Of a stretch of DNA of 64,000 nt, positions 47,051 to 63,264 are shown one piece after another (position 1 is the stretch's first letter; each line of letters opens with the position of its first letter). Both the position numbers and the translations under genes were made by a program. The DNA comes from Ferruginibacter sp. (GTDB lineage Bacteria > Bacteroidota > Bacteroidia > Chitinophagales > Chitinophagaceae). The notes under the pieces are model-generated. The model did no database searches, had not been told where the DNA came from, and saw only the letters and a list, made by a program, of their open reading frames with translations. Location of the stretch: positions 248,001-312,000 of the forward strand of contig JAQBNH010000006.1 in NCBI GenBank assembly GCA_028288705.1. Reading direction: 5' to 3'.

Positions 47051-47078
47051 AAAAGGCCCTGCAACTGCGGGGCCTTTT
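47051..47078 (+). terminator. Intrinsic terminator after the BNR-repeat gene
   Basis: AGGCCCTGC, loop AACT, GCGGGGCCT form a 9-bp stem with one wobble, followed by TTTG TTTT. It lies 17 bases after the stop. Confidence 0.85.
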
Positions 47079-47205
47079 GTTTTACAATAGGCATTTCTTT
47101 CCCGAAAAAAACTTAATTTCAGGGCTTATTACCGTACTGCTTAATCGAATCTTTCATTTTAAACAAACTGTTTTTGCAGGGGGCGTTTCGCTCCAATTAA
47201 CAATC

Positions 47206-50200
47206 ATGAAAAAACTACTGCTTTTTTTTGTTGTGCTATGTACAACCGCCACGCTGTATGCGCAAACCCTGACGGATGTTGCCGCCCGCAATCTCCTTAG
47301 CCGTAACAGCAATGCTCTTGGTCTTTCCAAACAAGACATGGAAAATGTTATTGTAGCAAATGCTTACCATAATAAATCAGCCGGTACGGATATGATTTAT
47401 TTACAACAGGCTTTTAAAGGTCTGCCTGTGTACAATCAATTGCTCGTGCTGGCTTTTAAAAACGGGCAGTTGGTATCCAATGCCGGCGCACGTGTAAGCG
47501 GCATGGAGAAAAAGACTGTTCATGCGGATATCAGTAAAGCGATCGCTGCAGAGCAGGCCGTACGTTTAGCCCTTGCAGAAAAGAAATTAGCCACGGCGCA
47601 AAACCTGGTGGGTGTGACAACAGGAAGCAAGTCGCCGAAATATAACTTTGGTAAATTGGGTGTTACCACAGAAGAAGTAACAGCGGAGCTGATGTGGGTC
47701 CCGGTAGACGAAGGCCGGCAGGTTAAACTCGCCTGGCAGGTATATATCGTTCCTTCCACTACTGCTGATTACTGGTTGCTGCGTTTTGACGCACAAACAC
47801 AACAACTGATCAGTGAAACAAACCTGACCGTTTATTGCGATTGGGGCAACCATGCAGATCATGCCGGTGCGAAACACCCGGTACATATCGCGGAAAGAAC
47901 CATCAGCAATAATCAGCAGCAGCAAAGTCCAAGCCTTGTTGGCAGTGCGAGTTATAAGGTGATTCCTTACCCTGCTGAGAGCCCGATTCATCCGGGTGGT
48001 TCACCTGCAACCGTTACCAATCCCTGGACGATGTCGCCGGGAAACGCCACCAGTTTAGGCTGGCACAACGATGGCGCAGTTGATTATACGATCTCCCGCG
48101 GAAACAACGTGTGGGCCCAGGAAGACAGGGACAACAACAATAATACCAACGGTTTGCCGGCAACATCTACCACTACGCCGGATCCCCTCACTTTCAACTT
48201 TACACCGGATTTTACTTTAGCGCCTACCACCGCTAATTTTCAGCAGTTTGCCATCACGAACTTATTCTACTGGAATAACCTGATTCACGATTTCTCTTAC
48301 CTGTATGGCTTTGATGAAGTCTCCGGAAATTTCCAGTCGAATAACCAGGGACGTGGCGGTTTAGGAAATGATTACGTGATCGCCGATGCACAGGATGCAG
48401 GCGGAACAAGTAACGCCAATTTCGCTACACCTGCTGATGGCGGACGTGGAAGAATGCAGATGTATCTCTGGAGTGGGTCACCACAAAAAGATGGTGATAT
48501 CGACAACGGCATTGTGTTGCATGAATATACGCATGGTATCAGTACACGCCTTACGGGGGGCCCGGCCAACTCAGGTTGCCTCGGTAATGTTGAACAAATG
48601 GGTGAAGGCTGGAGCGATTATTTTTCTTTAATGCTTACGCAGGATTGGGCAACGAGCACGATTACCGACGGGTTCACGAAACCACGAGGTATGGGTACTT
48701 ATGCAACGGGTTCTGTGATCACCGGGGTTGGTATACGTCCGGCCCGTTATACAACAAACCTCGCCGTGAACAATTACACTTATGCAAATCTGCCTTCGCT
48801 TGTAGCGCCTCATGGTGTTGGGTTTCTCTGGTGTACCGTGTTATGGGATATGACCTGGAAGATGATTGAAATGGATGGTATCAATCCCAATATTTTTAAC
48901 CCGGCCACTGTTGGCGGAAACTCGGCTGCAGTGAAACTGGTTACGGAAGGAATGCGCCTGCAACCCTGCAGTCCGGGCTTTATTGATGGCCGCAACGCGA
49001 TCTTACAGGCCGATCAGATCCTGTACAACGGCCGTTACCGTTGTGCGATCATGGAGGCATTTGCCCGCAGGGGTTTAGGCTTTGATGCAAGCCAGGGTTC
49101 GTCTAACAGTAAAAACGACCAGATCGTTGGCTTCTCCACTGTTGAAAGCAGTTTACAATTAGTACAAAACGTTACGCAGCAACTGGAAGGTCAGAACATT
49201 GTTTATACAAACAAAGTAACTGCAGGCAGTTGCAATGCGATCACCAATTACCTCGTAACAGATACTTTACCGGCAAACGTAACCTATGTTTCCGGCGGGA
49301 CTTATAACGCCGCCACCCGCGTGGTACGTTTTGTAGTGAATGTGCCTGCAGGTACCACGCAAAACTATTCTTTTACCGTAAGTGTGAATCCGGGTAGTTA
49401 CTTCACGCCGATCGAACATTTGAATGATGCGATCACGGCAACGAGTATCCCCAATAATTTTATCGCGAGTTCTTCCAACGCTACCAACTGGGTCGTATCT
49501 TCTGCTCAAAGCCATACGGCGCCAAGCAGTTTATTTGGTGCAGACCAGGCGGCTATCTCTGATATGAGTTTAACCACCAGCAACCCGGTAACACTGGGTG
49601 CAAACCCGGCCGTCCTTTCTTTCTGGCATCATTACGATACAGAAGATGGCTGGGATGGCGGTGTGGTAGAGATGAGCACGAATGGCGGTGCCAACTGGAC
49701 AGATCTCGGTGCTTACATGACCCAAAATAAATACAACGGTGCATTAGGAACCGGAAGTGCTTTGGCCAACAGGGCTGCATTTACCGGCCAGAATACAGGC
49801 TTCATTCAAACGATTGTACGCCTGCTGCCTTTCACCAATGTGAATGCGCAGTTCCGTTTCCGTTGTGCCTCTGATGATAATACGGCTTCACTAGGCTGGT
49901 TCGTAGACGATGTGCGCTTAAGCACTTCCCCGGAAGTAAATATGCGTTCTACGCTAATCAATACGCTGGGCGCGATTGTAAATGTATCTGACACCGTTGC
50001 GGCCATCCTGCAGAATGTTGCAGCTTGTGTGCCGGTAACGATCACGACGCAGCCATCTAACATCAGTACATGTACCGGGGCAACAGCCAACTTTACCGTG
50101 GCTACCGCCGGCTCCACACCTCAAACCTACCAGTGGGAAGTGAGCACAACAGGTTGTGCAGGCCCATGGAACAACGTTACGAATGCCACTTCAGCAACGC

Positions 50201-51390
50201 TAAGCTTAACGAACGTTACAGCCGCGATGAACAATTATGCTTACCGCGTAAAAGTGAGCAACAGTTGTACAACGCCTGCCGTTACATCCGCCTGCGCTGT
50301 GTTAACCGTAAACCTGGTAGCAGTTATTAATTCACAACCGGCAAACCAGCTGCTTTGTGCAGGAAGCACAGCTAATTTCAGCGTAACAGCTGCGGGTACA
50401 GGGCTTGCCTATCAATGGCAGGTAAGTACAAACGGGGGAACCAGTTTTGCTAATATCGCCGGGCAGACAGGCACAACGCTGAGCTTTGTTTCAACAAGCG
50501 CGATGAACAACAATCAATACCGTGTACTCGTAACGAGTACCTGTTCTGCAACAGGCACCACTTCTGCCGCTGCTACACTGAATGTGTATGATCCGCCGGT
50601 GATCAGCAGCCAGCCTGCAAGTTTCATTGGTTGTGTAAATGCCAATGCAACTTTTGCAACAACGGCAACAGGTTCAAACCTGGCTTATCAATGGCAGGTA
50701 AGTACAAACGGTGGCGTGAGTTACAGCAACATTGCCGGAGCAACCACTCCATCATTAACCGTTACAAATATCACTGCATTGATGAATGGTTATTTATACC
50801 GCGTGCTGGTTTCCGGAAATGCTCCCTGCGCCAACATCGTTTCTGCTACTGCGATATTAACGGTTAAACCAACACCTGTTGTTGTATTGACCTTATCTCC
50901 GTACAGCAGCCTTACGCCTTATACCAACTCCGGTTTGTTTACAACGATCAGCCCGGTAGGAACCTATACTTATCAGTGGTACCGGAACGGCGTGCTGTTA
51001 CCGAATATTACCACCCCTTCTTTACCGGTAACTGTAGACTGGCTTGGAGAATACAAAGTGGTGATCACGGATGTAACCAGCAATTGTACGAGCACGTCGA
51101 ATCTCGTAACAGTCACGGATTCTGCATCTTCCCAACTGTTCATTTATCCGAACGCCAACAGGGGACAATTCCAGGTGCGTTACTACAACCAGCCGGGAAA
51201 CAGTATTCCACGCAGCCTGAATGTATTTGATGCAAAAGGTGCATTGATCTTTACCAAAGCATACAATACAACCGGCCAGTACGGCAGGATGGATGTGGAT
51301 ATCCGCAATGCGTCTGCAGGTGTTTATTTTGTAGAGTTAAGAGATGCAGCCGGCAAAAGAATTATTTCCGGAAGAGTCGTGAAATTGTAA
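47206..51390 (+). CDS. M36 (fungalysin-type) metalloprotease with Ig-like repeats and T9SS domain
   Basis: 1394 residues from ATG 47206. Signal peptide to about residue 20 (CTTATLYAQ), a fungalysin/thermolysin-type propeptide (about 25-210), then the peptidase M36 domain with HEYTHGISTRL at 439-449 (zinc ligands His439 and His443, catalytic Glu440) and Glu467 in GEGWSDY as third ligand. A MAM/carbohydrate-like beta segment follows (about 790-930), then tandem Ig-like repeats of about 92 residues (AYQWQVSTNGG appears near 1068 and 1160), and a T9SS type A tail (LFIYPNANRGQFQV, about 1312 to the end). An extracellular protease, likely for scavenging protein or remodelling the surroundings. Confidence 0.92.
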   Translation: MKKLLLFFVVLCTTATLYAQTLTDVAARNLLSRNSNALGLSKQDMENVIVANAYHNKSAGTDMIYLQQAFKGLPVYNQLLVLAFKNGQLVSNAGARVSGMEKKTVHADISKAIAAEQAVRLALAEKKLATAQNLVGVTTGSKSPKYNFGKLGVTTEEVTAELMWVPVDEGRQVKLAWQVYIVPSTTADYWLLRFDAQTQQLISETNLTVYCDWGNHADHAGAKHPVHIAERTISNNQQQQSPSLVGSASYKVIPYPAESPIHPGGSPATVTNPWTMSPGNATSLGWHNDGAVDYTISRGNNVWAQEDRDNNNNTNGLPATSTTTPDPLTFNFTPDFTLAPTTANFQQFAITNLFYWNNLIHDFSYLYGFDEVSGNFQSNNQGRGGLGNDYVIADAQDAGGTSNANFATPADGGRGRMQMYLWSGSPQKDGDIDNGIVLHEYTHGISTRLTGGPANSGCLGNVEQMGEGWSDYFSLMLTQDWATSTITDGFTKPRGMGTYATGSVITGVGIRPARYTTNLAVNNYTYANLPSLVAPHGVGFLWCTVLWDMTWKMIEMDGINPNIFNPATVGGNSAAVKLVTEGMRLQPCSPGFIDGRNAILQADQILYNGRYRCAIMEAFARRGLGFDASQGSSNSKNDQIVGFSTVESSLQLVQNVTQQLEGQNIVYTNKVTAGSCNAITNYLVTDTLPANVTYVSGGTYNAATRVVRFVVNVPAGTTQNYSFTVSVNPGSYFTPIEHLNDAITATSIPNNFIASSSNATNWVVSSAQSHTAPSSLFGADQAAISDMSLTTSNPVTLGANPAVLSFWHHYDTEDGWDGGVVEMSTNGGANWTDLGAYMTQNKYNGALGTGSALANRAAFTGQNTGFIQTIVRLLPFTNVNAQFRFRCASDDNTASLGWFVDDVRLSTSPEVNMRSTLINTLGAIVNVSDTVAAILQNVAACVPVTITTQPSNISTCTGATANFTVATAGSTPQTYQWEVSTTGCAGPWNNVTNATSATLSLTNVTAAMNNYAYRVKVSNSCTTPAVTSACAVLTVNLVAVINSQPANQLLCAGSTANFSVTAAGTGLAYQWQVSTNGGTSFANIAGQTGTTLSFVSTSAMNNNQYRVLVTSTCSATGTTSAAATLNVYDPPVISSQPASFIGCVNANATFATTATGSNLAYQWQVSTNGGVSYSNIAGATTPSLTVTNITALMNGYLYRVLVSGNAPCANIVSATAILTVKPTPVVVLTLSPYSSLTPYTNSGLFTTISPVGTYTYQWYRNGVLLPNITTPSLPVTVDWLGEYKVVITDVTSNCTSTSNLVTVTDSASSQLFIYPNANRGQFQVRYYNQPGNSIPRSLNVFDAKGALIFTKAYNTTGQYGRMDVDIRNASAGVYFVELRDAAGKRIISGRVVKL
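50410..50711 (+). repeat. Direct DNA repeat within Ig-like domains
   Basis: A 26-base sequence starting TATCAATGGCAGGTAAG is identical at 50410-50435 and 50686-50711, 276 bases (92 codons) apart. It encodes the YQWQVSTNG strand of two consecutive Ig-like domains, showing recent internal duplication or gene conversion. Confidence 0.85.
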
Positions 51391-54420: not shown

Positions 54421-56211
54421 CTATTTAAATTGCATTTTATGCAACTGGTAGTAAAAACCTTCTTTCTGCATCAGTTCGGCGTGAGAACCGATCTCTTTCA
54501 CTTCTCCGTTATCCAGCACGAGGATCTTATCTGCTTTGCGGATCGTACTCAGCCGGTGCGCAATTACGATCGATGTTCTTCCTGCAATCAGTTTTTCAAT
54601 GGCGTTCTGGATCAGTCCTTCACTTTCTGAATCCACAGAAGAGGTAGCTTCATCTAAGATCAGGATGGCGGGATCGTATAAAAGCGCACGAACGAAAGAC
54701 AACAATTGCCGCTGCCCTAACGACAGGGTGGCCCCACGTTCCATCACGTTATAATCATATCCGCCTGGCAGCTGTTCAATAAACTCGTGCAGGCCGATCA
54801 GTTTTGCAGCACGCACCACTTCTTCTTTGGATATTTCCGGGTTACGCAGCGTGACATTGTCCATCACTGACCCGCTGAATAAAAAAACATCCTGCAACAC
54901 CACGCCAATGCGGCTCCGCAGGAAATCAAGATCATAATCATCTATATTTTTATCATCGATCGTAATGCTGCCTTGCTGAATTTTATAGAGGCGGTTGATC
55001 AGGCTGATGATGGAAGTTTTACCGCTCCCGGTATGCCCCACGATCGCCAGCGTTTTGCCCGCTTCAATATCGAAAGACAGGTTTTTCAACACATAACGTT
55101 CGGCGATATACGCAAACCAGACATCCTTAAACCGGATACTGCCTTCCAGTTTTGCCGGAATAAGCTTTCCTTCATTCACGGTTACATCGGGGTTATCGAT
55201 CACTTTAAACACGCGTTCGCTGGCGATCATGCCCATTTGCAACACGTTGAATTTATCAGCGATCACGCGTAACGGGCGGAACAATAAGTTGAGGCAGAGA
55301 ATAAAGGCCGTGATGATCCCTGCGGCATCCTGGGCACGCTCGGGGGAAACGTACAGGGATTCTTTGGCAGCCCACCACACCAGCAGCCCGATCGAGAGTG
55401 CAGACACCAGTTCAACGACGGGGAAGAAAACAGAATAGGCAAATATGGCCTTGATATTCGCATTGCGGTGTTGCCTGTTGATGTCGGTAAATTTTTGCTG
55501 TTCCCTTTGCTCTGCCGCGAAAGCCTGTACCAGCGCCATTCCCGTGATATGCTCCTGTACGAAAGCATTCAGGTTGGCCACCGCGTTCCGAACTTTAATG
55601 AATGATTTATTTACGCTTTCTTTAAAAATATAAGTCGCGAGGATCAGGAATGGAAAAGGCGCGAGGCAGATCAGCGTAAGTTTCGCATCTACCCAAAACA
55701 TATAACTCAGCACGGAAATGATCGAGAGCAAGTCACCGATGATCGGTATCAGGCCATCGCTAAAAATATCATTGACAGATTCAATGTCATTGATCGTTCT
55801 TGTTGTAAGCGTCCCGATCGGCGTCTTGTCAAACTGCGATAAATTTAAGTGAACGATCTTATTGTAAGTGGTGGTGCGCAGGTCTTTCACCACAGACTGG
55901 CCCAATGAAGCCGTTGTAAAGGTGAAATAAAAACGGCAGGTCGTTTCTATGAAGAGCAGCACCAGTTGAATAATCGTGATCTCGATGATGAATCCACCCG
56001 GACCTGAAAAGAAATGCGCAGCAGCCTTATTTTTAATGCCGTCGTTGATCGTTAACTGGATCAGCAGCGGGCGTAAAGGCGCCATGGCCGCCAATAACAC
56101 CGATAGAAAAAGGGAGAGGTAAAATTTATTTTTGTAAGGCGCAGCAAATGTGAACACTCTTTTCAACAGGGAAATATCCACTTTCTTTTTGGGGGCGCCG
56201 CCGGTACTCAT
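54421..56211 (-). CDS. ABC exporter, fused membrane and ATPase domains
   Basis: 596 residues. A type I exporter membrane domain (about 25-330) is followed by the ATPase with Walker A GHTGSGKTS near residue 389, signature TLSLGQRQ near 492, Walker B LILDEAT near 512 and IAHRLSTIRKADKI near 546. It resembles MsbA/MdlB-type half transporters that work as dimers. The substrate is unknown. It is divergent in family details from the exporter at 14.6 kb, so the two are not a recent duplication. Confidence 0.9.
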   Translation of the reverse strand: MSTGGAPKKKVDISLLKRVFTFAAPYKNKFYLSLFLSVLLAAMAPLRPLLIQLTINDGIKNKAAAHFFSGPGGFIIEITIIQLVLLFIETTCRFYFTFTTASLGQSVVKDLRTTTYNKIVHLNLSQFDKTPIGTLTTRTINDIESVNDIFSDGLIPIIGDLLSIISVLSYMFWVDAKLTLICLAPFPFLILATYIFKESVNKSFIKVRNAVANLNAFVQEHITGMALVQAFAAEQREQQKFTDINRQHRNANIKAIFAYSVFFPVVELVSALSIGLLVWWAAKESLYVSPERAQDAAGIITAFILCLNLLFRPLRVIADKFNVLQMGMIASERVFKVIDNPDVTVNEGKLIPAKLEGSIRFKDVWFAYIAERYVLKNLSFDIEAGKTLAIVGHTGSGKTSIISLINRLYKIQQGSITIDDKNIDDYDLDFLRSRIGVVLQDVFLFSGSVMDNVTLRNPEISKEEVVRAAKLIGLHEFIEQLPGGYDYNVMERGATLSLGQRQLLSFVRALLYDPAILILDEATSSVDSESEGLIQNAIEKLIAGRTSIVIAHRLSTIRKADKILVLDNGEVKEIGSHAELMQKEGFYYQLHKMQFK

Positions 56212-56253: not shown

Positions 56254-58479
56254 TCAATTTAATGACTCGTTCTCCATCTTTTTATGGTAAGCCTTGATGA
56301 AGATCGCACCGAGGTTTTTGTAAGGAGGAACATAATCATCCCAGCTTTCCCGCACTTCCTTATTGGGATCTTTAGAAAATACTTTGGTCAGCGAAGCCCA
56401 CATCGGCTTCCAGGAAATATTGTTACCGGAGATCAATGACTGATTCAGGTAATTAATGATCGGCTGGTTGATATCGCCTTTACCAATCTCTTTGGTAGAA
56501 ATGATATGTGCATCCGGGCATGTTTCGAGGATCTGGTTAAGATTCTGGTAGCCGCCACATGAACCGAGAATGATCACCCTGGCACTTTCCGGTAAACGGG
56601 AAATCGTGCCCGGCAACCAGTAACTATGCCCGCGGTGTACGGCAACGGTTGGACGCAATTCATTTTGCTCTAAATATTTTGCGAGATGCACCTGCGCAGA
56701 ATCATCCAGGTTTTCATTGTAATCCAACGGGCGGTTAGCGAACACCATTACATTGCCTTTTACAGACTTCATTTCTACCCATTCTTTCTTCATGGTTTTC
56801 GTCCACTCTTTGGAAGAAAAAGAATTCACGAACGGTGTAAAATATTCCCGGCCATCTTCATCACCATAAAAGAACACCTGCTGCACGATGCGGCCTTTTT
56901 CATCCTGCATATCTTTATTGGCCACTTCATAAATAGAAGGAATACCGATCTCAGCGGTAAGGTCAATATTTTTTAAACTATCCCCGGAAAGAAAGATCGT
57001 CTTCAATAAACCATACACCACTTTACCACGCACATTATTTTCAGCAATGCTTTTCCGTTCATTTTGTTCTACATAAGAAAGGATCGTGTTCAGTAAATTT
57101 TTGTCGCTGATACTGCTGTAAGAATCGGCTACGTCCACGGCGTCTTCCAGGTTACCCGTTTTATCGAGGTTGGCAACAAAGGCCTTCATCAGCACCTCAG
57201 AGCTCGACGGCGGCATGATCTTGAGAAAGGTATCCAGTTTATTAAAGTTCGCCGCCATCTTGATGAACTTCTTGAAATAATCAAAATTAACGGAGAGCAA
57301 CAGTGAGTCACCGCGCGGGTCTGCACCCATGCGTTGCAACATCCGGTTAAAACTGTGTTTGTAGCTACTGGTGTAAATATCGTTCTCTCCCATCACCATC
57401 ACGTAATACAATTCCTGTGGCGTTAAAGGATCGATCGCACGCATCCTTACGTTTAGGTTGTTCTCGTTATGCAATAAATTGATCGGGGTAATAAAATGCT
57501 GGAGCGCTTTATTTTTTAAGACTTCACGCAGGCCGTTGGCACCAAACATCGCGATCGGTGTATCGCGCAGCGGCGGTAAAGTTCTTTTAAAATATTCTGT
57601 TTCTGTTTTTACCAAAAGGCGGAAATAGCCCACACTGTCGTATCCTTTCTCCCCGTCACCAACAAATTTCTGGATACTGTCCACTGATTTTTTACCGGAT
57701 AAAATATCATCGAGGAATGGAAAATAAAATAATGCGTTTGGCGTCTGGCTTAATTTGGCCACTGCCAGCACCATTGGATTCGTATTGCGGTGAATCAGTT
57801 TTCCTTCCGGTGATTTTACTGATTGTGCGTATGAATAAAACTGCACCGGGTCACGCTGGCAGGCGAGTAAGATCAGGCTGTCGGCAAAAGGTTCGTTTAC
57901 AAATGGACGGATCGTTGCCAGGATCTTATCCGGGTGTAAAGAACAATATTTGAGGTAGACGATATTTTGCGCTTCACCCAATTCTTTGCTATCGAAAAAT
58001 ACATCGCTGTTGATCTTCGCCATTTCATAAGACGAAGCGCGGAGAAAAGGCAACATCGAATTGCCTTTCACCTGGGCTTTCATGATGCCTTCAAAACTGG
58101 AGAGCAAAGCCGGGAACTCCAGCGGGTTGATGCCGCGGCTTTTCCAGCTGATGCGGAAATATTTTACGAGGTTTTCGATATAACGCAGGTAACGGACTTT
58201 ATCATTCTTGGAAGGAAGTTCGGGATTGGTTTCCACCCAGTCTTTCAGATCGTTCACTTTACGATAGAGGACATCCGATAATTGCAGGTTAATCTCTTCA
58301 TTGCTGCTGGCATGCAGGCTCCCATCCAGCTTACCATCAGCTTTATCACATAATTTCTGTTCCTGGAGAATGCGGTCATGAAAATACTGCCGGTCCAATG
58401 GCACTTTTACAGTATCAGCGGCGGCGTAGAGGTTTGAAAAAGCTAGCAACAATGCTACAAATAAAACGGTATTCTTCAT
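56254..58479 (-). CDS. Secreted protein with C-terminal clan-CD-like His/Cys motif, unknown family
   Basis: 741 residues from ATG 58479 (a second ATG lies three codons upstream). A signal peptide (VLFVALLLAFSNLYAA, to about residue 20) is followed by a long helical, mostly hydrophilic region (about 25-560) without repeats or named domain. Near the C-terminus, TVAVHRGHSYW (His615 and His618) is followed 23 residues later by ARVIILGSCGGYQN with Cys641, the hydrophobic-strand then HG/H, hydrophobic-strand then SC order of clan CD cysteine peptidases (caspases, gingipains, clostripain). It is then a candidate periplasmic or surface protease, but no family assignment is possible by eye. A near-consensus box CATCTTTG lies 18 bases upstream. 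Confidence 0.7.
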   Translation of the reverse strand: MKNTVLFVALLLAFSNLYAAADTVKVPLDRQYFHDRILQEQKLCDKADGKLDGSLHASSNEEINLQLSDVLYRKVNDLKDWVETNPELPSKNDKVRYLRYIENLVKYFRISWKSRGINPLEFPALLSSFEGIMKAQVKGNSMLPFLRASSYEMAKINSDVFFDSKELGEAQNIVYLKYCSLHPDKILATIRPFVNEPFADSLILLACQRDPVQFYSYAQSVKSPEGKLIHRNTNPMVLAVAKLSQTPNALFYFPFLDDILSGKKSVDSIQKFVGDGEKGYDSVGYFRLLVKTETEYFKRTLPPLRDTPIAMFGANGLREVLKNKALQHFITPINLLHNENNLNVRMRAIDPLTPQELYYVMVMGENDIYTSSYKHSFNRMLQRMGADPRGDSLLLSVNFDYFKKFIKMAANFNKLDTFLKIMPPSSSEVLMKAFVANLDKTGNLEDAVDVADSYSSISDKNLLNTILSYVEQNERKSIAENNVRGKVVYGLLKTIFLSGDSLKNIDLTAEIGIPSIYEVANKDMQDEKGRIVQQVFFYGDEDGREYFTPFVNSFSSKEWTKTMKKEWVEMKSVKGNVMVFANRPLDYNENLDDSAQVHLAKYLEQNELRPTVAVHRGHSYWLPGTISRLPESARVIILGSCGGYQNLNQILETCPDAHIISTKEIGKGDINQPIINYLNQSLISGNNISWKPMWASLTKVFSKDPNKEVRESWDDYVPPYKNLGAIFIKAYHKKMENESLN

Positions 58480-58626
58480 AAAGCACATTTCTACTGCAAA
58501 GATGGTGCAATTTTATTGGATTGCTCGTTGATGAGAGGATGGCGCGCGCCAATACGCTGCTCCCGGTTAACAATTTGATAATATTATAACGTTCATTTAA
58601 CTACCCTGCCGATGCGTTCGTTAGCC

Positions 58627-58655: not shown

Positions 58656-59324
58656 ATGGCAAACAAAATCCTGATCGCTGATGATGAGCCGGATATCCTC
58701 GAGATTCTGAAGTATAACCTGGAAGCGGAAGGCTACGAAGTGATCACTGCGAAAGACGGCGACGAAGCAATTGAACAAGCGAAGAAACATTCTCCTGAAC
58801 TGATCATCCTGGATATCATGATGCCGCGCAAAACGGGCCTTGAAGCCTGTAATATCCTGCGGATGATGCCGGCGTTTCGCGATACCCTCATCGTTTTCCT
58901 GACCGCGATGAGCGACGAGACCACGGAGATCAAAGGGCTGGAAACCGGGGCTGATGATTACCTCACCAAGCCGGTGAGTCCGAAAGTATTGGTAAGCAAA
59001 ATCAATGCGCTGTTCCGCAGGTTTAATAAAGAAGAAACGGGCATCATCAAGGTTGGTGATTTCGAGATCGACCGCCAGAAATACGTGGTGAACCATAACG
59101 AAGAAGAAATTATTTTAGCCAGGAAAGAATTTGAATTGCTGGCGCTGCTGGCGTCTAAACCAGGGAAAGTTTTTCTACGAAACGAAATATTAAACCAGAT
59201 CTGGGGCACGGAAGTGATCGTTGGAGACCGCACGATCGATGTGCATATCAGAAAAATCCGCCAGAAACTCGGCGTTGATTGTATCACCACGGTGAAAGGT
59301 GTGGGGTATAAGTTTGAGTTATAG
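58656..59324 (+). CDS. OmpR/PhoB-family response regulator
   Basis: 222 residues. Receiver domain: acidic pocket IADDEPD at 7-13, phospho-acceptor Asp53 in LIILDIMMP, switch Thr in VFLTAMSDE near 84 and Lys in DYLTKPVSPK near 106. The winged-helix DNA-binding domain (about 130-222) has LARKEFELLALLASKPGKVF and IDVHIRKIRQKLG. Its partner kinase gene lies 126 bases downstream; the gap holds a tandem octamer repeat. PhoB-like by overall sequence, but the regulon cannot be told. Confidence 0.94.
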   Translation: MANKILIADDEPDILEILKYNLEAEGYEVITAKDGDEAIEQAKKHSPELIILDIMMPRKTGLEACNILRMMPAFRDTLIVFLTAMSDETTEIKGLETGADDYLTKPVSPKVLVSKINALFRRFNKEETGIIKVGDFEIDRQKYVVNHNEEEIILARKEFELLALLASKPGKVFLRNEILNQIWGTEVIVGDRTIDVHIRKIRQKLGVDCITTVKGVGYKFEL

Positions 59325-59332
59325 AGTTGTTG

Positions 59333-59420
59333 GTTGATTAGTTGAATGGTTGAATGGTTTATCAGTTGAATTGTTGATTAGGTGAGTAGTTGATTAGTTG
59401 AATTGTTGATTAGTTCATTA
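59333..59420. repeat. Eleven tandem degenerate octamers
   Basis: 88 bases divide exactly into eleven 8-base units, with GTTGATTA (59333, 59373, 59389, 59405) and GTTGAATG or GTTGAATT (59341, 59349, 59365, 59397) as main forms plus three degenerate units. They fill the gap between the response regulator and kinase genes. The same octamers occur at 51491-51567. Confidence 0.88.
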
Positions 59421-59450
59421 GTGCTTAGCTTGCGTAGGAGAAAACCCGTC

Positions 59451-60512
59451 ATGCTTTCTGCAAAAAATTTTTCACCACAACAACTGGCCGCATTAACAGC
59501 GCTGGCCTTGTCTGTTCCCATCGTTATTGGGATCAGTATTTTTCATCCCGGCCTCTGGAACTTACTCATCAGTTTCGGACTGATCTTTTTGGGCAGCTTC
59601 GGTCTCATCCTTTACACGCTGCAAACATTTATCTACCGCAAGATCAAACTCATTTACAAACTCATCTACCAGACCAAAGCCAGCAAACGCGAAGAGTTTT
59701 ATTACAAAAACATATTACCCCAGAAGAGTATTGATGAAGTGCGCGAAGATGTGGAAGCCTGGGCAGAGCAACGAAAAAAAGAGATCGAGATCCTCCAGCA
59801 AAATGAAGCTTTTCGCAAAGAGTTCCTGCAGAATTTAAGTCATGAATTAAAAACGCCCATTTTCGCGATCCAGGGTTATGTAGATACCCTGCTGAGCGGC
59901 GCACTACATAACGATGCAGTCAACTCCAAATTTTTGCAAAGCACCGGGCGCAATGTAGATCGCCTCGTGAATTTATTGGATGACCTCGATGAAATTTCCC
60001 GCCTGGAAAGTGGTGAACAAAAACTGCAGTTTAGTTATTTCGTTATCCAGGACCTCGTGAAAGATGTATTTGATTTGCTTTTCATAAAAGCAAAAGAAAA
60101 AAACATTCGCAGCATCATAAAAAAGGGTTGCGAATTGCCCCTGTCCGTTTATGCAGATAAAGAAAAGATCCGCCAGGTACTGATCAATTTTGTTGACAAC
60201 GCGATCAAATACGGTAAACAAAACGGAACGATCGAAGCCAGTTTTTATAAAGTGGATGGCCGCAATGTATTGATCGAGATCAGTGATGATGGCACCGGCA
60301 TTTCCGAAGAACACCTCCCCAGGATATTTGAACGGTTTTACCGCACCGACCAGGCGCGGACGCGAAAAGAAGGGGGCAGCGGGCTCGGGCTCTCCATCTG
60401 TAAACATATCATCGAAGCACACCAGCAGGCGATTCATGTAAGGAGTAAGATCGACGTCGGCAGCAGCTTTGGCTTTACACTGCCAAAAGATGCCGGTGGT
60501 TTTTATTCGTAA
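59451..60512 (+). CDS. Membrane sensor histidine kinase
   Basis: 353 residues from ATG 59451; an earlier TTG start would run through the octamer repeat and is rejected. Two membrane helices (about 12-30 and 35-58) with almost no periplasmic loop, a short coiled linker, then HisKA with phospho-acceptor His131 in NLSHELKTP, and a HATPase domain with N-box NFVDNAIKYG, G1 EISDDGTGI and G2 GGSGLGLSI. The lack of a periplasmic sensor domain suggests sensing within the membrane or via a partner. It pairs with the PhoB-like regulator upstream. The 3' end overlaps the convergent PAP2-like gene by ten bases. Confidence 0.92.
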   Translation: MLSAKNFSPQQLAALTALALSVPIVIGISIFHPGLWNLLISFGLIFLGSFGLILYTLQTFIYRKIKLIYKLIYQTKASKREEFYYKNILPQKSIDEVREDVEAWAEQRKKEIEILQQNEAFRKEFLQNLSHELKTPIFAIQGYVDTLLSGALHNDAVNSKFLQSTGRNVDRLVNLLDDLDEISRLESGEQKLQFSYFVIQDLVKDVFDLLFIKAKEKNIRSIIKKGCELPLSVYADKEKIRQVLINFVDNAIKYGKQNGTIEASFYKVDGRNVLIEISDDGTGISEEHLPRIFERFYRTDQARTRKEGGSGLGLSICKHIIEAHQQAIHVRSKIDVGSSFGFTLPKDAGGFYS

Positions 60513-61327: not shown

Positions 61328-62185
61328 ATGCTACCTGAAAAACGACATGTAGAGCTGGTGGTGATCTCCGATGTGCACCTCGGCACTTATGGTTCACGTG
61401 CCCGTGAATTGAACCGCTACCTCGCCACCATCAACCCAGCAACATTGGTGCTCAACGGTGATATCATCGACATCTGGCAATTCAGTAAACGTTACTGGCC
61501 GCCCAGCCATATGCTGGTGATCAAACAGATCCTGAGCATGTTAAGTCGCGGTGTGAAAGTGATCTATGTTACCGGTAACCATGACGAGCTATTGCGCCGT
61601 TTTGAACATTTCTCGCTGGGCGATTTCCAGATCGTGAATAAATACATTGCCCATCATCCCGATGGCAGCAGGAGCTGGATCTTCCATGGAGATATTTTCG
61701 ACGTAACGATGAAGCACAGCAAATGGCTGGCAAAGCTCGGCGCTGTTGGCTACGACAGCCTGATCCTGATCAATGCTTTTGTAAACTTTATCAGCCAGAA
61801 ACTGGGCAGAGGCCGGATCTCTTTTTCCGGGAAAATAAAACAGTCTGTAAAAACAGCGCTGCGCTTCATCAACGATTTTGAGCTGACGGCAGCAGGCATC
61901 GCGATCAGTAAAAAATATAATTACGTGGTCTGCGGCCATATTCATCAGCCATGTAAAAAGCAGGTAAAGAATGAAGAGGGCGAAGTGGGTTACCTCAACA
62001 GCGGCGATTGGGTAGAAAACCTGACGGCGCTGGAATACAACAACAATGAATGGCAGTTATACCAATATCATATGGATCAGCTGGTACACGATTTCGATCC
62101 TTCGCTGTATACCGACGAAGCGGGTTATTTACACACGGCCGAATTATTTAAACTCATGATGAAAGATTTCGATGCGGCTTCATAG
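61328..62185 (+). CDS. LpxH-like UDP-2,3-diacylglucosamine diphosphatase / metallophosphoesterase
   Basis: 285 residues. Calcineurin-type metal motifs in order: SDVHLG (about 14-19), NGDIID (about 43-48), GNHDE (about 85-89), FHGDIFD near 117 and CGHIHQP near 202. The family includes LpxH, which cleaves UDP-2,3-diacylglucosamine to lipid X in lipid A synthesis; the sequence is somewhat longer than E. coli LpxH (240). It is followed by a glycosyltransferase gene after 20 bases. Lipid A synthesis is the best-supported guess, but other UDP-lipid phosphoesterases cannot be excluded. Confidence 0.8.
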   Translation: MLPEKRHVELVVISDVHLGTYGSRARELNRYLATINPATLVLNGDIIDIWQFSKRYWPPSHMLVIKQILSMLSRGVKVIYVTGNHDELLRRFEHFSLGDFQIVNKYIAHHPDGSRSWIFHGDIFDVTMKHSKWLAKLGAVGYDSLILINAFVNFISQKLGRGRISFSGKIKQSVKTALRFINDFELTAAGIAISKKYNYVVCGHIHQPCKKQVKNEEGEVGYLNSGDWVENLTALEYNNNEWQLYQYHMDQLVHDFDPSLYTDEAGYLHTAELFKLMMKDFDAAS

Positions 62186-62205: not shown

Positions 62206-63264
62206 ATGAAAATATTATATGCCATACAGGCAACAGGCAACGGGCATATCAGCCGCGCCAACGAGCTCATCCCCTACCTCGAATTGTTTGCCGAAGTGGA
62301 CCTGCTCGTCAGCGGCACGCAGGCAAATATGGAGATCGATCAGTTCGTAAAATTCAGGCGTAAAGGACTGAGCTTTGTCTGTGGAAAAAACGGCGGCATT
62401 GATCTCCTGAAAACATTGCAACAGTTACGCACGAAAAAATTTCTCCAGGAAGTCAAAACGATCCCGGTTACAGATTATGATTTCGTGCTGAATGATTTTG
62501 AGCCTTTATCCGCCTGGGCCTGCAAGCTTAAAAATATCCCCTGCATCGCGATGAGCCACCAATTTGCCGTGATCGGGAAAGCCGCTCCCCGACCTCCCCG
62601 TTATGACCCGCTGGCCTGGCTGGTCTTGCGTTACTATGCACCATCCAATATGGGCATTGGCTTTCATTTTAAACAATATGACATGGCCACTTACCTGCCT
62701 GTTATCAGGGCTGAGATCAGGAACGCCTATCTGCGTAACCTGGGCCATTACACAGTTTACCTGCCGGCGTACGAGGATAAAAAACTGGTGAAACTGTTAT
62801 CTGTGCACAAACATATCCAATGGCATATTTTCAGCCGGAAAGCGTTAAAGTCTGCTGAGCAAAACAACTGCTGGATCCGGCCGGTCAACAATTTTGATTT
62901 TATCAGCAGCTTTACCACTTGCGAAGGCGTGATTTGCGGAGCAGGTTTCGAAACACCGGCAGAGGCCCTGTTTATGAATAAGAAATTACTGGCCATCCCC
63001 ATGAAGGGACAATACGAGCAGGGTTGCAATGCCGCAGCATTGGAGGAACTTGGGGTAAAGGTTTTAAAAAAACTCTCGGCAAAAAAAACAAAGCAGTTGG
63101 CAAAATGGCTGGCAGACAAAACCAGCATCCAAATGGATTACCCGGATCATACGTTGCAGATCGTGAAGCATCTTTTGGCGAGTGTGAAAGATCTCGGCAA
63201 TGCATTAAAACCGCCCTTAGCAGAACCCGAAACAGAGGAATTGATTTCTCTTGATTTTTTGTAG
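62206..63264 (+). CDS. MurG/GT28-like glycosyltransferase family protein
   Basis: 352 residues, GT-B-like. The N-terminus KILYAIQATGNGHISRANEL is a glycine loop as in MurG-type transferases; the C-terminal half has GVICGAGFETPAEALFMNKKLLAIPMKGQYEQGCNAAALEELG, the nucleotide-sugar site typical of this family. Donor and acceptor are unknown. It comes 20 bases after the LpxH-like gene on the same strand, so a joint role in envelope glycolipid synthesis is plausible. Confidence 0.82.
   Translation: MKILYAIQATGNGHISRANELIPYLELFAEVDLLVSGTQANMEIDQFVKFRRKGLSFVCGKNGGIDLLKTLQQLRTKKFLQEVKTIPVTDYDFVLNDFEPLSAWACKLKNIPCIAMSHQFAVIGKAAPRPPRYDPLAWLVLRYYAPSNMGIGFHFKQYDMATYLPVIRAEIRNAYLRNLGHYTVYLPAYEDKKLVKLLSVHKHIQWHIFSRKALKSAEQNNCWIRPVNNFDFISSFTTCEGVICGAGFETPAEALFMNKKLLAIPMKGQYEQGCNAAALEELGVKVLKKLSAKKTKQLAKWLADKTSIQMDYPDHTLQIVKHLLASVKDLGNALKPPLAEPETEELISLDFL

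Follow-up and report, generated by a model that had tools for sequence, protein, structure and literature searches.

A conserved, probably periplasmic protein of Ferruginibacter with a helical N-terminal part and a likely caspase-like domain, encoded beside a two-component system

The stretch of Ferruginibacter DNA analysed here (the window, 64,000 nucleotides) carries on its minus strand a gene whose predicted product joins a long helical part to a C-terminal alpha/beta domain with two conserved motifs. The gene lies between an exporter gene on the same strand and a divergent pair of regulatory genes, and the features that bear on its interpretation are as follows.

54421..56211, minus strand: MsbA-like ABC exporter gene (ABC_membrane and ABC_tran), 42 bp downstream of the gene and on the same strand
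56254..58479, minus strand: gene for the 741-residue, putatively secreted protein with solenoid and likely caspase-like domain (open frame, matched in every own-genus genome searched)
56257..56967, minus strand: C-terminal alpha/beta domain, residues 505-741 (237 residues; domain model, best match the C11 peptidase 6nag)
56551..56565, minus strand: G639-S-C641-G-G643, holding the candidate nucleophile, after the strand that follows HRGHSY (C641 in 116 of 116 unique domains)
56620..56637, minus strand: H615-R-G-H618-S-Y620, holding the candidate catalytic histidine, at a strand end (H615 in 116 of 116 unique domains, H618 in 114 of 116)
56851..56868, minus strand: Y538-G-D540-E-D542-G543, loop that follows the first strand (both D540 and D542 kept in all 47 domains)
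56980..58398, minus strand: helical N-terminal part, spanning residues 28-500 and interpreted as an alpha-solenoid (AlphaFold model, mostly high confidence)
58417..58479, minus strand: predicted signal peptide, covering residue 1 to about residue 21 (hydropathy rule; AlphaFold helix at 2-15, then pLDDT below 50 at 15-21)
58567..58583, minus strand: TATTATCAAATTGTTAA, conserved motif in the region shared with the divergent regulator gene, where the regulator may bind (intergenic alignment)
58656..59324, plus strand: OmpR/PhoB-type response regulator gene, divergent neighbour (Response_reg and Trans_reg_C)
59403..60512, plus strand: sensor histidine kinase gene (HisKA and HATPase_c)

An alternative in-frame ATG 9 bases further upstream would give a product of 744 residues. 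The best NCBIfam model for the regulator is PhoB, at 226 bits and thus below that model's cut-off of 296, and the exporter reaches 456 bits against the MsbA model, below the cut-off of 602; ATP synthase genes, annotated by sequence reading, lie beyond the exporter in the window. Elsewhere in the window, a calcineurin-like phosphoesterase gene with weak LpxH resemblance (61328-62185) is followed by a gene for a glycosyltransferase of the MJ1255/VC2487 family (62206-63264), and a large open frame on the plus strand (47077-51390) presumably encodes a secreted metallopeptidase, with the motif HEYTHGIS and a C-terminal T9SS-like tail.

This arrangement of genes is widely kept. The 37 named loci examined come from Ferruginibacter, other Chitinophagaceae, and Chitinophagales or Bacteroidota records, mostly metagenome assemblies; the regulator adjoins the gene in all 37, the kinase is near in 36 (the contig of the remaining one stops at that point), and 34 also have the exporter. 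Sampling of other genera, by 20 chosen loci of about 12 kb from 18 genomes, two of which contributed a second copy, placed the regulator/kinase pair beside the gene in 16 loci and the exporter in 12; since ATP synthase genes are also close by, in 11 of the 20, the synteny may partly be plain conservation of place. One genome (G326) has divided the neighbourhood between its two copies, with the regulator/kinase pair at one (L196) and the exporter at the other (L200). Outside the family, only one of six loci (L068, L069, L070, L071, L074 and L075) has the gene near a regulator/kinase pair, namely L071, where a DUF547 gene stands between them. A gene for polyphosphate kinase 2 (PPK2) lies directly downstream in two loci of other genera (L199, 4156-4908; L207, 6165-6908) and about 4 kb from the gene in L189 (11376-11999), and these three loci are too few to build on.

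A search with the single protein found the gene in 42 of 59 relatives, all 36 same-genus genomes (own included) among them, and a profile of the whole protein found it in 14 of 395 genomes of the phylum, all 14 belonging to the same family. Among 298 genomes of the order, the profile of the C-terminal domain alone reached 128, with 83 from the own family and 45 from other families. The gene is carried by 83 of the 85 own-family genomes listed (the listed misses, G595 and G669, come from the 170 genomes that the domain profile missed, 20 of which were itemised, nearest kin first), and it is a core gene of its bacterial family. Genomes of the order's other families have two matches in 41 of 45 cases. 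Some of these copies form tandem pairs, in which a frame of 676-702 residues adjoins one of 935-1085 residues (L070, 3930-9293; L074, 883-6201; L071, 4462-9268), and two genomes (G038 and G058) have their two copies on separate contigs. A homologue 25-27% identical over the matched part is present on four Azospirillum plasmids; in two of them (L093 and L094) the HRGHSY and GSCGG motifs and a YTSS segment of the helical part are kept, so that the architecture seems to be shared. Phages gave no match, and 28 stretches of viral contigs that fit a pattern yielded no confirmed case. We rejected an origin from phages or plasmids, there being no phage or confirmed viral match and no plasmids other than the four Azospirillum records.

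The protein is probably periplasmic. The preliminary description of this DNA had proposed a signal peptide without a T9SS sorting domain, and both proposals hold: the N-terminus is signal-peptide-like, and the Pfam matches of the window protein include no T9SS tail. The signal-peptide call rests on a simple hydropathy and small-x-small rule and not on a trained predictor; 27 of the 28 Met-starting rows of a 34-row alignment conform to it, and the peptide looks like type I, with no lipobox in the window protein. Among 11 distant relatives, some Met start conforms to the rule in eight, L068 and one L071 copy conform only in part, and in L093 and L075 the start of the open frame has no nearby Met.

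The same description had found no recognisable family in the sequence, and searches bear this out. Pfam (E up to 10) and NCBIfam each returned a single chance-level match to the window protein (bMG1, E 0.075, and rad10, E 0.022, respectively), with no Pfam match to Peptidase_C11, Peptidase_C25, CHAT, TPR or Peptidase_C14, and a single-protein search of the PDB sequences returned none. When Pfam was run on 47 domains of the family, neither C11, C25, CHAT, C14 nor TPR was among the 25 families listed; EF-hand models matched weakly in up to three of the 47 (best E 0.005), and the sole match of a profile search of the PDB (E 1.6) was to a calcium-binding protein, with the alignment falling on the YGDEDG loop. 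We treat these calcium-protein matches as local resemblance; the loop itself (56851-56868) resembles an EF-hand calcium loop. PADLOC gave no match to three members. A known family overlooked by a weak search was therefore rejected as an explanation, since Pfam on 47 members, NCBIfam, the PDB by single sequence and by profile, and PADLOC gave nothing useful. In the open-licence PMC literature, no paper was found on 'HRGHSY', the listed titles of a wider search describe subjects other than this family, and nothing was returned on DdvA or iotapain.

In the C-terminal domain, residues 610-643 read TVAVHRGH...VIILGSCGG, with His618 and Cys641 set 23 apart just as originally described, and with 26 between His615 and Cys641. 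Across 51 full-length sequences, that of the window protein among them, 83 positions do not vary, and these include H615-R-G-H-S-Y620 and G639-S-C-G-G643. A more diverse set of 47 domains, consisting of the window domain and others 24-76% identical to it drawn from 80 collected, leaves 10 of the 237 query positions invariant, these being D540, D542, P584, H615, R616, G617, S619, G639, C641 and G642. The widest survey started from 148 matches and gave 117 unique domains, of which one (L030, truncated before the motifs) was dropped; in the 116 that span both motifs, a motif search shows Cys641 and His615 each present in 116 and His618 in 114. The two exceptions are divergent paralogues with Tyr (935-residue frame of L071) or Leu (1025-residue frame of L177) in place of His618, and these might be damaged copies. 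Because His615 is lost in none of the 116 and His618 in two, we favor His615 over His618 as the candidate catalytic base. The preliminary description expected strict conservation of His618 and Cys641 and made their loss in orthologues its test; among close orthologues this test fell in its favour, both residues being invariant in the 51 full-length sequences, and for His618 the expectation gave way in the wider family. The invariance of His615 and Cys641 in distant relatives rules out a chance motif.

Structure prediction supplies the context in which these residues can be read. Two AlphaFold models were made, of the full-length protein and of residues 505-741, each from 34 sequences that comprised the window protein and relatives. 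With pLDDT 86.6 and pTM 0.67, the full-length model shows helices from residue 28 to about 500, as the preliminary description had supposed in proposing a large helical N-domain, and an alpha/beta arrangement after 530; a profile of the N-terminal helical stretch matches twice, weakly, in the 1085-residue paralogue of L070. The domain model (m0a16ddfb243a; pLDDT 89.4, pTM 0.88) has the same order of elements as the full model, namely a strand, a helix, two strands, a strand, a helix, a strand ending in HRGH, a helix, a strand ending in the Cys motif, a helix, a strand and helices. His615 lies in a predicted strand at 610-616, and the following strand spans 635-638, or 635-642 in the domain model, where it holds Cys641. 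Clan CD peptidases cleave with a strict P1 preference. In these enzymes the catalytic His ends strand beta3 and the Cys ends beta4, with the His first in sequence, and the core sheet is parallel with strand order 2-1-3-4 (PMC4357240). As judged from predicted secondary structure alone, our protein has its His and Cys on such strands, and the conserved dyad of the clan is represented by His615 and Cys641.

The models were also compared with known structures. In VIA-align, whose notes put Z 8-9 just above their middling level and warn that a common arrangement can reach a Z of about 8, C11 peptidases came first for the domain (6nag, Z 9.1, rmsd 5.0, 186 aligned; 6n9j, Z 8.5; 6mzo, Z 7.8), and Csx29 also matched (8eex, Z 7.8, 146 aligned, rmsd 3.6). 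The list for the full model starts with separase (5mz6, Z 8.7, 156 aligned, rmsd 3.7, residues 514-721), 6nag (Z 8.7) and DdvA (Z 8.6, rmsd 10-11), and has GTPases up to Z 8.4 and Csx29 at Z 8.1; separase is absent from the best 50 matches listed for the domain alone. Caspases and gingipains proper are absent from the VIA-align lists, an absence that does not exclude these families. A CHAT profile of our own making, from 14 sequences, finds DdvA and Csx29 among the PDB sequences. Foldseek gave no match reaching E 0.001 for the full model, and for the domain its list is led by GTPases (Roco, E 5.6e-4, TM 0.31/0.25, rmsd 18.5).

The prominence of GTPases speaks for a different reading, in which the domain would have an unrelated alpha/beta fold, GTPase-like or Rossmann-like, and its His and Cys would have a function other than peptidase catalysis, for instance in binding a metal or sensing a ligand. 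Small GTPases also follow in the VIA-align list of the domain from Z 7.5 down, and two GTPase-like chains of dynein complexes align over 160-164 residues to near the domain end (Z 6.6-6.9). However, the alignments of the GTPases ranked 5-18 span 124-155 residues and stop at domain residues 178-204, whereas the C11 matches cover 185-191 residues and reach the last residue, 237; moreover, the domain has no P-loop of the form GxxxxGK[ST], and its invariant residues are placed where clan CD enzymes have theirs. We regard an unrelated fold as unlikely. The clan CD arrangement of strand-borne His and Cys put forward in the preliminary description is favored by the predicted order of elements, the invariant His and Cys and the C11 peptidases as best matches, and tempered by GTPases that come close and scores barely above middling. 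A caspase-like fold of the C-terminal domain is likely, not proven, with moderate support from the models.

Sequence profiles of three clan CD families do not place the domain within any of them. Profiles of CHAT (19 of 20 loci), C14 (17 of 20) and C25 (20 of 20) were compared with an 80-row profile of the domain by hhalign and gave P values of 0.023, 0.12 and 0.31, respectively, against 0.088-0.62 for nine unrelated neighbour families that served as controls; in global mode the three gave P 0.66-0.80. The best local alignments of CHAT and C14 stop exactly on Cys641, opposite the conserved Cys of those families, and that of C25 aligns its GHG histidine with His615. Once the alignments are extended, no family of the three has both His and Cys on the known pair, and the scores overlap those of the controls, so these local coincidences are unusable as proof. 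Kinship to CHAT, C14 and C25 is accordingly not significant and not demonstrated, and in sequence the family stands apart; nothing ties it specifically to the gingipains that the preliminary description had invoked. C11 matches were three among 39 genomes, one of them below the cut-off.

The region between the gene and the regulator gene offers a possible link to signalling. There TATTATNAAATTGT is present in all 18 aligned intergenic regions (the window and 17 of the 37 named loci), and the exact core ATTATNNNATTGTTAA has 106 sites in 79 family genomes compared to 42 for a reversed control pattern. In 20 of the 34 among these genomes with a listed gene position the core lies 1-2.2 kb upstream of the domain, which is near the gene start; the other 14 have no exact core at the expected place, among them G578 with a core at 2.5 kb, and most of the 57 exact core sites in the 34 genomes lie elsewhere than the expected place. 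Our own genome has a single exact motif site. We infer that the regulator may bind at the conserved motif. A wide regulon was rejected, the own genome having 5 motif sites at up to two mismatches versus 12 reversed-control sites.

Taken together, these observations lead us to favor, with somewhat better than even confidence, a clan-CD-type cysteine peptidase located in the periplasm and carried on a helical solenoid, as an output of an envelope two-component system. The 741-residue protein would be a new and probably active clan-CD-like cysteine peptidase. The signal peptide would export the protein, and the solenoid would hold the peptidase domain in the periplasm, where Cys641 would act as the nucleophile attacking the substrate and His615 (or His618) as the general base. 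Like the TPR part of Csx29, the solenoid may bind a substrate or ligand and position or gate the active site, and the peptidase may cleave one or a few periplasmic proteins. The neighbouring regulator would control the gene through the conserved promoter motif, and with such control the peptidase would be the output of the two-component system.

The same fold and the same Cys/His chemistry could instead serve a transpeptidase or ligase that attaches or rearranges envelope proteins. Some clan CD enzymes, such as PorU and legumain, transpeptidate, and the fold and residue evidence fits such an activity equally; a housekeeping role in processing would suit the near-universal presence of the gene in its family. 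Against this, the profile comparison gave no demonstrated sequence kinship to C25, and we consider a transpeptidase rather improbable. A pseudo-peptidase or scaffold that kept the fold and lost catalysis, acting as a sensor or inhibitor, could claim the loss of His618 in two divergent tandem paralogues (L071 and L177) and is very improbable, as retention of Cys641 and His615 in all 116 domains would be unusual for a dead enzyme.

If the peptidase reading is right, caspase-type peptidases gain an unlisted family that is near-universal in its bacterial family and unmatched by Pfam and NCBIfam here, the solenoid-plus-caspase design of separase and the RNA-activated Csx29 is found also in an exported enzyme with a link to envelope signalling, and a conserved two-component system gains a concrete, testable output. 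A bolder version, which we offer as speculation with the chances against it, is a separase- or Craspase-like design in the periplasm, in which the solenoid senses an envelope signal and activates the caspase-like domain, and specific cleavage acts back on the envelope, with the divergent PhoB-like two-component system in control; the family would then be new to clan CD and core to one large bacterial family.

Four known systems come closest to this protein. Gingipains and PorU (C25) belong to clan CD and have members in the same genome, but unlike them the window protein has no Pfam match to their family and no T9SS tail match, and their profile compares with the domain at P 0.31. The C11 peptidases, represented by clostripain, iotapain (6nag and 6n9j, both titled secreted Bacteroides proteins) and a zymogen (6mzo), are the known structures that the domain resembles most, with alignments running to its last residue, whereas the window protein lacks a Pfam C11 match, has a helical part of about 470 residues and carries the motif HRGH/GSCGG. 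Separase (C50, 5mz6) resembles it through its clan CD domain, as matched with the full model, and carries a helical solenoid; separase is eukaryotic and intracellular, and it differs further in that the window protein has no PDB sequence match by single protein or profile and in separase's absence from the best 50 domain matches. Among TPR-CHAT and related CHAT proteins, Csx29 (8eex) and DdvA (8rot) are structural matches, and CHAT is the best of the three clan CD profile comparisons. Unlike Csx29, the window protein is predicted to be exported, has an H615-C641 spacing of 26 in place of 43, and is without a Pfam CHAT or TPR match or a PADLOC match. Csx29 has helical repeats followed by caspase-like domains, catalytic residues H615 and C658, and a TPR region that relays activation to the caspase-like site (PMC10028731). 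Both of these Csx29 residues fall within its range aligned to the window protein.
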